DNA from: a virus
Length of the DNA stretch: 41,507 bases
IMG/VR virus record: IMGVR_UViG_3300022602_003058
Span: 1 to 41,507 of that record
Reading direction: 5' to 3' (one strand)
Shown here: one piece after another, positions 1,832-5,168 of the stretch
How positions within the stretch are numbered: position 1 is the first letter of the stretch
Layout: each line of letters starts with the position of its first letter
The notes under the pieces: model-generated
What the model saw: only the letters and a program-made list of their open reading frames with translations
What the model was told of the DNA's origin: nothing
Databases searched by the model: none
Made by a program: the position numbers and the translations under genes

Positions 1832-1860
1832 TTGACAACAAAAGATAAATAAAATATAAT
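1832..1860 (+). promoter_or_regulatory. Consensus sigma70 promoter, leaderless for the 41-codon ORF
   Basis: TTGACA (1832-1837), 17-base spacer, TATAAT (1855-1860): a perfect match at both boxes. Transcription is expected at 1867-1868, and the ATG of the leader ORF is 1868-1870, so its mRNA should have no 5' leader. Confidence 0.88.
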
Positions 1861-1867
1861 ACACATT

Positions 1868-1993
1868 ATGATGAACTTGACTATTAAACATCTATCTTTG
1901 ACACAGCCAACACTAGGCGGGCTAGCCTATTGGTCAGTGGACAACGCGATGAATAATAGCATTCGTGAATCGCTACATGAGGGTCTAAGTTAA
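1868..1993 (+). CDS. 41-residue putative leader peptide
   Basis: Short ORF starting at two consecutive ATG codons directly at the predicted transcription start, ending in TAA at 1991-1993. The peptide is leucine-rich (six or more Leu in 41), with no domain I recognise. Its last four codons lie inside the left arm of a hairpin (1980-1993 with 2015-2028) that competes with the terminator at 2025-2053. This is the arrangement of a translated attenuator: a ribosome reaching the stop codon would break the first hairpin and let the terminator form, while a ribosome stalled earlier would allow read-through. It could instead be an ordinary small gene. No Shine-Dalgarno is possible because there is no leader. 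Confidence 0.55.
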   Translation: MMNLTIKHLSLTQPTLGGLAYWSVDNAMNNSIRESLHEGLS

Positions 1994-2028
1994 TCAAGTG
2001 TTATTTTTATTTTGTTAACCAAGACCCT
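1980..2028 (+). promoter_or_regulatory. Putative antiterminator hairpin
   Basis: AGGGTCT (1980-1986) pairs perfectly with AGACCCT (2022-2028), and GTTAA (1989-1993) pairs with TTAAC (2015-2019), separated by a 2x2 internal loop. The right arm shares bases 2025-2028 with the left arm of the terminator, so the two structures cannot coexist. Confidence 0.6.
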
Positions 2029-2053
2029 GGAACTAAACACTCCAGGGTTTTTT
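2025..2053 (+). terminator. Rho-independent terminator (attenuator)
   Basis: CCCTGGA (2025-2031) and TCCAGGG (2041-2047) form a 7-bp stem with a 9-base loop, followed by six T residues (2048-2053). It lies between the leader ORF and the 52-residue gene, so it decides whether the latter is transcribed from the 1832 promoter. Confidence 0.85.
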
Positions 2054-2070
2054 ATTTAAAGGAGCAGGAA

Positions 2071-2229
2071 ATGTCAGAAAAACAACAAAAACTACAAAAT
2101 CAGTTTTTGCTAACATCAGAGCAGAAGATTGCTTTAATGGAAGCCAAAGTTGCAAGGGCAGAAGCACAAGTTAAAAGTCTGGCAGAACAGACCAGAGCTT
2201 TTGAAAAGGCCCGCACCAATCAATATTGA
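2071..2229 (+). CDS. 52-residue predicted coiled-coil protein
   Basis: Small protein not otherwise recognised. It starts at ATG 2071 after a strong Shine-Dalgarno (AAAGGAG, 2058-2064) and ends at TGA 2229. Residues about 3-45 are rich in Gln, Lys, Glu and Ala with hydrophobic residues at heptad-like spacing and no Pro or Gly, so a single alpha-helical coiled coil is expected. It lies directly downstream of the attenuator at 2025-2053, so its expression probably depends on read-through. A function cannot be assigned; small coiled-coil phage proteins often bind a host protein. Confidence 0.7.
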   Translation: MSEKQQKLQNQFLLTSEQKIALMEAKVARAEAQVKSLAEQTRAFEKARTNQY

Positions 2230-2242
2230 CTGGTAAGTGTTG

Positions 2243-2281
2243 ACAGGAAACGAGGTCCTGTACCACACTCTAAACAGGTAC
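2243..2281 (+). other. Short competing hairpins in an untranslated stretch
   Basis: ACAGGA (2243-2248) can pair with TCCTGT (2256-2261), and the overlapping CCTGT (2257-2261) can pair with ACAGG (2274-2278). The stretch 2230-2333 has no ORF worth reporting and leads into the tRNA-like element, so it may be the 5' part of one structured RNA. Confidence 0.3.
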
Positions 2282-2333
2282 GAACGGGCGGGCACTAGGA
2301 TGGAGTCTCTCTTGTGAGATAAAAAATCAGTGT

Positions 2334-2426
2334 ATAGTAAAGTGCTCTGGTGTGGTCTAATGGTAAGGGCGCCTACCGCAAATTGGAGAACTGGGGTCGA
2401 CTCCCAGCATTGCAGAGCACTTTACT
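2334..2426 (+). ncRNA. tRNA-like element closed by a 17-bp inverted repeat
   Basis: The 17 bases beginning TATAGTAAAG at about 2334 are the exact reverse complement of the 17 bases ending CTTTACTATA at about 2426. Between them is a tRNA-like core: a D-loop-like TCTAATGGTAA, a possible anticodon loop CCGCAAA (Cys, GCA) with a poorly paired stem and C instead of U at position 33, and a good T arm CTGGG-GTCGACT-CCCAG. Five extra bases (CATTG) separate the T arm from the acceptor-like stem, so this is not a standard cloverleaf. It may be a decayed tRNA-Cys, or a tRNA mimic with an extended acceptor stem. A normal tRNA-Cys exists at 4758. Confidence 0.5.
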
Positions 2427-2430
2427 ATAT

Positions 2431-3342
2431 CTAGTGTACAACGACTTGGTCAAACACTAGATCTTGATAGTGAAGGCCCATGGCAACCACGTCGGCTTGA
2501 TTCAGTGTGCGACCAATCACAGGATGTCCAGTATAGTGCCAGATTCGATCCCATCCATGCTGGGCAACAAAGTCTGGGGCATTGGTTCGCCACCAGTTCT
2601 CGTAGGATCCATCCAAGATATCAGAGTTGTCTCTGACCTTGGTGAGTATGTTGATTCCAGGTCTAACAAAATCGTGGAATTTGCAGGTTTGAAAAACATT
2701 GGTCCAGTCGTTGTATCTATAAATTTGCAACGGGCCGTGGCCCACAAACGGATTCTGTAATTTGATATCGCCAACTTCCATATTCAGTTTGAATTCAAAC
2801 GATTCATCTAAGGCAAATCCTTCGTCGTTGAACCATTCAATTTGTAAAAATCCTGTTGTAACGCGATCTCCAGTTTTGTTTGCAGTAGTGCTGGTTGTTG
2901 CAACAGCCGGAAGAGCCGCAGGCGCAACGGGTACAGGCCCGGTAACCGGAACAGTTGGTACAGTATAAGTAACTGGTTTTAGTCCGGACCCAGCTTCAAT
3001 GGCATGAATACAAAAATGCATTTCGTGTATCAAATTGTCATATATGGCTGGAATATTTTTAAATCCATTGGCACAGATCTGTTCGATGTTTTTGTGTAGT
3101 ACAACAGTATCGTCGGCAGTGGCAATATTGGTAGAGTAATTCCAGTTTAATTTTTCATTGGCCTCGGCGACCAACTCATTGAGATAGGCCAAGGTATATT
3201 TTTTCTTTCCGCTACGACAAATAGGCATTTGTCGGCTGTAGTTGTCGGCAAACAATCGTTTCCATTGGCGAGCAACGTCGTTGTCGTCCAGTTGTATCAG
3301 CAGTGGCGGAAAGTCCTGGAAGTAAATTGATAAATCTTGCAT
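2431..3342 (-). CDS. Unknown protein, about 303 residues
   Basis: No family recognised. The open frame reaches 3372, but the first codons would be TTG inside tRNA-Tyr. I prefer ATG 3342, which lies exactly 13 bases after the first base of a minus-strand late-promoter motif AATAAATA (3348-3355), making the mRNA leaderless. The first half (to about residue 125) is rich in aromatic and acidic residues. A low-complexity Pro/Val/Thr/Ala linker follows (about 128-165), then a second acidic, aromatic-rich domain. Two domains joined by a flexible linker and a late promoter suggest a virion or late protein. It is the only leftward gene in the first 10 kb. Confidence 0.7.
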   Translation of the reverse strand: MQDLSIYFQDFPPLLIQLDDNDVARQWKRLFADNYSRQMPICRSGKKKYTLAYLNELVAEANEKLNWNYSTNIATADDTVVLHKNIEQICANGFKNIPAIYDNLIHEMHFCIHAIEAGSGLKPVTYTVPTVPVTGPVPVAPAALPAVATTSTTANKTGDRVTTGFLQIEWFNDEGFALDESFEFKLNMEVGDIKLQNPFVGHGPLQIYRYNDWTNVFQTCKFHDFVRPGINILTKVRDNSDILDGSYENWWRTNAPDFVAQHGWDRIWHYTGHPVIGRTLNQADVVAMGLHYQDLVFDQVVVH

Positions 3343-3347
3343 GTCAA

Positions 3348-3355
3348 TATTTATT
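3348..3355 (-). promoter_or_regulatory. T4-type late promoter motif (minus strand)
   Basis: AATAAATA read on the minus strand. With T4 spacing (-13 to -6), transcription would start at 3342, the A of the ATG of the unknown leftward gene. Confidence 0.5.
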
Positions 3356-3366
3356 GTGCAGAATTT

Positions 3367-3451
3367 GGGCAAGCGGCTAAGTTGGAGAGTGGCGGCGGAC
3401 TGTAAATCCGTTCCTTTTGGTGAATAGGTTCGATTCCTATCTTGCCCACCA
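3367..3451 (+). tRNA. tRNA-Tyr(GTA)
   Basis: Acceptor GGGCAAG (3367-3373) pairs with CTTGCCC (3441-3447). The CCA end is encoded. The anticodon loop CTGTAAA gives GTA. There is an extended variable arm, as in bacterial Tyr tRNAs, and a T arm with GTTCGATTC. Confidence 0.93.
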
Positions 3452-3465
3452 AAATCATGTTATAA

Positions 3466-3494
3466 TTGACAAATAAATGTCAAAATAGTATAAT
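3466..3494 (+). promoter_or_regulatory. Consensus sigma70 promoter for tRNA-Asp and the following tRNAs
   Basis: TTGACA (3466-3471), 17-base spacer, TATAAT (3489-3494). The predicted start (about 3501) is 2 bases before the mature 5' end of tRNA-Asp. TTGAC and GTCAA flank the -35 region as an inverted repeat (3466-3470 and 3479-3483). The spacer is of the recurrent ATAAATG-CAAAAT type. Confidence 0.9.
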
Positions 3495-5024: not shown

Positions 5025-5053
5025 TTGACAACATTGGCATTGTCATGTATAAT
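5025..5053 (+). promoter_or_regulatory. Consensus sigma70 promoter for tRNA-Asn
   Basis: TTGACA (5025-5030), 17-base spacer, TATAAT (5048-5053). The predicted start is about 5060, 2 bases before mature tRNA-Asn. TGACAA and TTGTCA form an inverted repeat (5026-5031 and 5040-5045) over the -35 box and the spacer, which could be an operator. Confidence 0.9.
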
Positions 5054-5137: not shown

Positions 5138-5168
5138 ATCGTAATATAACTTAAACACAAAGGTCACA

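Follow-up and report, generated by a model that had tools for sequence, protein, structure and literature searches.

The window analysed here is a 41.5-kb viral contig (IMG/VR record IMGVR_UViG_3300022602_003058, positions 1 to 41,507). It encodes a UvsW-like helicase, GroEL and AhpC/AhpD-like proteins as well as 12 tRNA genes, and a search of cultured-phage DNA gave no similarity match to it. In Rfam, tRNAs were the only family of the window at the gathering threshold, with no leader, riboswitch or T-box family, and the matches at the E-value threshold were weak and at chance level. Since contigs of 354 and 357 kb are among the relatives that carry the element described below, a large T4-like phage of fresh water is the probable source; we infer both its habitat and its size. 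The element stands at the head of the tRNA-rich region of this phage.

A sigma-70 promoter, TTGACA-17-TATAAT, lies on the plus strand at 1832–1860 and matches the consensus at 12 of 12 positions. The ATG of a leader reading frame of 41 codons (41 aa; 1868–1993, plus strand; from the ORF list and the comparison of loci) begins 7 nt downstream of the −10 box, a spacing that predicts a leaderless or nearly leaderless transcript. The UAA stop of this frame is located inside an antiterminator hairpin, the left arm of which (1980–1993, plus strand) holds the last codons of the leader and ends with its stop codon. The right arm (2015–2028, plus strand) overlaps the 5′ arm of an intrinsic terminator at 2025–2028, and 12 of the 14 positions of the antiterminator are paired. 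The terminator (CCCTGGA/TCCAGGG followed by T6; 2025–2053, plus strand) was identified by folding and covariation, and its arms were recovered in the window at 2021–2031/2041–2051. As bases 2025–2028 are common to both hairpins, the antiterminator and the terminator are mutually exclusive. All of these elements, from the perfect promoter and the leaderless 41-codon frame to the two hairpins with shared bases, had been described in the initial annotation, and we located each of them. Another hairpin, P1 (CCAA..UAGGC-GGGCUA-GCCUA-UUGG; 1907–1933, plus strand), is situated in the middle of the leader.

The promoter spacer also contains the word GATAAATA (1844–1851, plus strand), and a TAAATA core was seen by eye in the promoter spacer of most of the relatives. 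Other copies of GATAAATA or TATAAATA on the plus strand of the window are at 6082, 11536, 22257 and 34124, several of them just 5′ of start codons. These words are possible T4-type late promoters, and the copy at 1844 would then overlap the early promoter of the attenuator. As a lead, the unit may be transcribed early as well as late.

Downstream of the terminator, a 52-aa reading frame (ORF2; 2071–2229, plus strand) is predicted to form a coiled coil and has no Pfam or PHROG match. The ribosome-binding site claimed for it is present upstream as AGGAG. It is followed by a conserved structured RNA (2236–2429, plus strand) that consists of a GGAAACGAGGUCC...CACUAUAAA...AACGGGCGG core and then a long stem, UAUAGUAAAG.../...CUUUACUAUA (2333–2349/2413–2429), enclosing a variable domain. 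In the window this domain is tRNA-like (2346–2415; Rfam tRNA at 21.9 bits, below threshold), and the structured RNA as such matched no Rfam family at the gathering threshold. The sigma-70-like sites listed for the plus strand of the window include none between 2053 and the structured RNA, so that this RNA is most likely made by read-through. The initial annotation had placed the elements of the unit correctly but had closed it at 2229 (1832–2229), while the functional unit runs on to the RNA at about 2236–2429. A minus-strand ORF of 313 aa (2431–3372; no PHROG match) follows the structured RNA and precedes the tRNA cluster. Together with the perfect promoter at 3466, it separates the unit from most of the tRNAs, so the direct target in the window is the 52-aa ORF and the RNA.

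Within the tRNA region itself, perfect TTGACA-17-TATAAT sequences are present at 3466–3494 and 5025–5053, ahead of tRNA-Asp and tRNA-Asn. The segment 4838–4916 is a tRNA according to Rfam (36 bits) that was missed by ARAGORN. The region 5805–6056, after tRNA-Ser, is devoid of a long ORF, is flanked by the perfect inverted repeat AACAAGTTTGGGCACA / TGTGCCCAAACTTGTT and looks like a second structured RNA.

The attenuator layout was found at 34 loci on 33 uncultured viral contigs, all the relatives being metagenomic. The search proceeded through the 52-aa protein, a leader DNA pattern, protein alignments, an RNA model of the antiterminator and terminator, and an antiterminator-only DNA pattern; the RNA model and this last pattern are independent of both the leader peptide and ORF2. 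Two of the attenuators, L012 and L127, are on a single contig (IMGVR_UViG_3300047480_000210), where they precede different RNA units. In cultured phages there was no relative of either the leader peptide or ORF2, and ORF2 was not found in bacterial genomes (one per species). The antiterminator pattern had a single match among about 85,000 species genomes, in a Spirochaetaceae genome; this match is a simple inverted repeat that lacks a run of T residues, and it was taken as chance. A similar antiterminator and terminator at L056 (5762–5842) fit the RNA model and precede a tRNA. The ORF upstream of them ends far before the left arm, and L056 was left out of the set; perhaps it is a leader-free or decayed relative.

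All 18 loci first collected have a 17-bp promoter spacer, and the AUG lies 6–11 nt past the −10 box in these 18 and in 13 of those found later (the second ATG was used for L111), so that these 31 transcripts are likewise predicted to be leaderless or almost leaderless. Among the remaining three loci, the 5′ region is longer in L048, and a clear sigma-70 site is missing from L012 and L041.

The antiterminator pairing is also conserved. Across the loci, 93.3% of its cells are paired, against 26–61% for slid versions. Both sides have changed at 6 of the 14 pairs (21 cells) and the covariation score is 0.335, compared to 0.212 in shuffles (0 of 500); as the loci are related, these counts overstate the number of independent events. 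Several of the short alignments used for the pair counts were assembled by hand from the arms after these had been located in each sequence. When the right arms were exchanged between loci, the observed pairing was never reached (0/10,000). The terminator covaries as well (CCCUGGA/UCCAGGG, CCCUAGG/CCUAGGG, CCUCGG/CCGAGG). Compensatory changes in relatives, which had been suggested earlier as a check on the switch, are thus found among the 34 loci.

No in-frame stop interrupts the leader in the first-collected 18 loci, whereas the other two frames have 85 and 87, with at least two stops in each of these frames at every locus. Outside the RNA elements, the pN/pS of the leader is 0.44 when pooled over close related pairs. 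Codon-position changes on the tree showed no clear third-position excess; constraint at the protein level, therefore, rests on the close pairs and on the open frame. The stop codon forms the last three bases of the antiterminator left arm in 25 of the 34 loci (15 first-collected and 10 later), and it stays at the end of the arm though the sequence of the arm varies (GUUAA, GAUAG, AAUAG; UUAA, AUAG). Five loci (L005, L085, L117, L012 and L048) have AGGGUCC/GGACCCU as the arm, with the stop in or adjoining a nested hairpin, 20–27 nt beyond the start of the left arm, so that a terminating ribosome would cover the inner hairpin more than the outer arm. At the level of sequence, the comparison of loci establishes the pairings, the open frame, the position of the stop and the conserved context. 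The compensatory conservation, the frame that is always open, the fixed stop and the leaderless start all bear out the earlier proposal of a translated attenuator with mutually exclusive hairpins.

Next we consider the folding of the RNA. The leader of the window folds better than its shuffled versions (z −2.6; 3 of 200), and its two end states have nearly the same energy (antiterminator −47.3 and terminator −47.5 kcal/mol, a difference of 0.2). Near-equal energies would give a fixed mixture, as expected of a constitutive terminator with partial read-through, where the antiterminator does no more than adjust a constant ratio and the product is the short leader transcript itself. As such a terminator would leave the conserved leader frame, the start at the 5′ end and the stop within the arm unexplained, we regard it as improbable. 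In the growing RNA of the window, the antiterminator forms first and persists until the terminator is complete, and the antiterminator hairpin is the stronger of the two in 18 of 18 loci tested. When the footprint of a ribosome at the stop codon was blocked, 32 of 33 loci were predicted to fold the terminator, compared to 12 of 33 when the ribosome was left out or placed 25 codons upstream. The 12 free leaders that still fold the terminator at equilibrium include that of the window, so the ‘on’ state leans on the order of folding during transcription. The footprint folding and the greater strength of the antiterminator point to the direction of the switch: a fully translated leader would turn it off, and an untranslated leader or an early stall would turn it on.

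We propose that the locus is probably a ribosome-controlled transcription attenuator that acts as a general sensor of the failure of leader translation. RNA polymerase would start at or beside the leader AUG, and the ribosome would load directly on the 5′ end. With the ribosome at the stop codon and the polymerase 30–60 nt ahead, the left arm would be covered, the terminator would form and transcription would end at about 2053. Without translation of the leader, or with the ribosome retained far upstream, the left arm would pair with the right arm once the latter is made; the antiterminator would then block the terminator, and the polymerase would continue through the 52-aa gene and the structured RNA and, in many of the relatives, through tRNA genes as well. 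It is the switching in vivo, its direction and its signal that we infer.

The P1 hairpin offers a different possibility, in which P1 or another element of the leader binds a metabolite or a protein and sets the choice between antiterminator and terminator, the reading frame being incidental. P1 is clearly conserved as RNA: two of its pairs have changed on both sides in relatives (C-G to U-A and A-U to G-C), the compensatory variants being UAGGC:GCCUA to UAGGU:ACCUA, UGGGU:ACCUA and UGGGU:GCCCA, and its folding beats the mean of synonymous recodings in 18 of 18 loci. The hairpin overlaps the codons of PxLGGLAYW, so part of the apparent conservation of the peptide is conservation of the RNA. However, P1 is altered or absent in L031, L111 and L127, where the switch is retained, and no Rfam riboswitch was matched. 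A ligand riboswitch would also not account for a frame that is open at every locus beside two others full of stops, for a stop codon that holds its place in the arm or for a pN/pS below 1, and we consider it very unlikely. No pause signal was seen by eye after P1.

The initial annotation had suggested that the Leu-rich peptide senses either Leu-tRNA or translation in general. A sensor of one aminoacyl-tRNA, as in the trp, his and leu operons, could respond to Leu, or to Trp or Tyr given the conserved YW in P1. W is present in 31 and Y in 32 of the 34 leaders, the first full tRNA gene downstream in the window is tRNA-Tyr, and a tRNA-Tyr is also near in L005, L117, L012 and L128. However, the longest run of a single residue is only 1–3 in the 34 leaders, and I, M, N, L and G are present in all 34, so that Leu is not singled out and no Leu bias is seen. 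The leader sequences diverge widely; L031 is without W and L127 without W, Y, H and R, and both keep the switch. Sensing of Leu-, Trp- or Tyr-tRNA was rejected or downgraded on the basis of the missing codon run and the variation of residues among the leaders, and we hold a sensor of this type to be unlikely. With neither a codon run nor a residue special to all leaders, the second suggestion, a general sensor of translation, fits better.

The targets of the switch vary among the relatives. After the terminator, the usual order is a protein of the ORF2 family (about 50 aa, 49–58; a predicted coiled coil without database match), the structured RNA and often tRNAs, with a tRNA gene within 700 nt at 18 loci. 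The core of the structured RNA is present in 28 of the 32 loci with enough sequence (for example at 5158–5430 in L005, 4161–4360 in L097 and 9050–9150 in L060). In L060, L048 and L128 the protein is absent and the attenuator leads directly to the structured RNA, and in L127 it leads directly to tRNA-Gly; hence the 52-residue protein, which the initial annotation took for the controlled gene, is not always the target. L041 has a 15-aa ORF followed by tRNAs, and in L105 and L111 the protein is retained but the structured RNA is missing.

Attenuation by a leader peptide is a textbook device of bacterial operons. Like the trp, his and leu leaders of enterobacteria, the phage element has a translated-type leader, a segment shared by the antiterminator and the terminator, and a ribosome at the leader stop that would mask the antiterminator arm and let the terminator form. 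Unlike them, it lacks a run of regulatory codons and is not followed by biosynthetic genes, and we could find no protector (1:2) hairpin in the consensus fold or by eye (a weak and variable one is possible); it starts leaderless, resides in a phage genome and often has a structured RNA or tRNA as its target. The analogy drawn earlier with amino-acid biosynthesis attenuators holds for the geometry of the switch but not for the regulatory codons, nor, as far as detectable, for the protector. With no run of regulating codons, and an ORF of about 50 aa, a structured RNA and tRNAs in the place of biosynthetic targets, the element is not an attenuator of the amino-acid operon type. The leader ORF of translated type, the conserved exclusive hairpins and the terminator driven by the ribosome footprint, as judged from sequence and folding, correspond to an attenuator in the general sense. 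Another parallel is bmrB-bmrCD of Bacillus subtilis, an antibiotic-responsive, ribosome-mediated attenuator that controls a host drug transporter (PMC4191407). Its leader, bmrB, has 53 codons and has to be translated for efficient expression, and read-through is attributed to a general block of translation, not to the lack of one amino acid (PMC4191407). The length of the leader and the read-through upon a general translation block are similar in the two systems; the host drug-transporter target of bmrB-bmrCD and the prediction that the phage switch is on when its leader is untranslated set them apart. From its predicted workings, which resemble those of the trp, his, leu and bmrB attenuators, the phage switch would be classed as ribosome-mediated transcription attenuation.

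As with the tRNA clusters of T4-like and jumbo phages, the attenuator locus begins a tRNA-rich region. We found no report in open-access papers of a translated attenuator ahead of such a cluster, nor of a leader-peptide attenuator that is encoded by a phage, has a leaderless leader or precedes tRNA or structured-RNA genes. Relative to the attenuators known from this literature, the phage setting, the leaderless leader and the stable-RNA targets appear to be new.

It is possible, and we put it forward tentatively, that the switch is a feedback device by which the phage senses failing translation during infection, for example when tRNAs are cut by a defence system of the host or charged tRNAs are exhausted, and responds with the transcription of phage tRNAs and of a structured RNA dedicated to this purpose. 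If true, no earlier leader-peptide attenuator would be known to control genes for stable RNAs, and leaderless initiation would let the state of whole ribosomes be read directly. The switch would be a reporter transferable to a laboratory host. A conserved translation-sensing switch at the head of the tRNA region of a phage would offer a testable explanation for the tRNAs found in many large phages.
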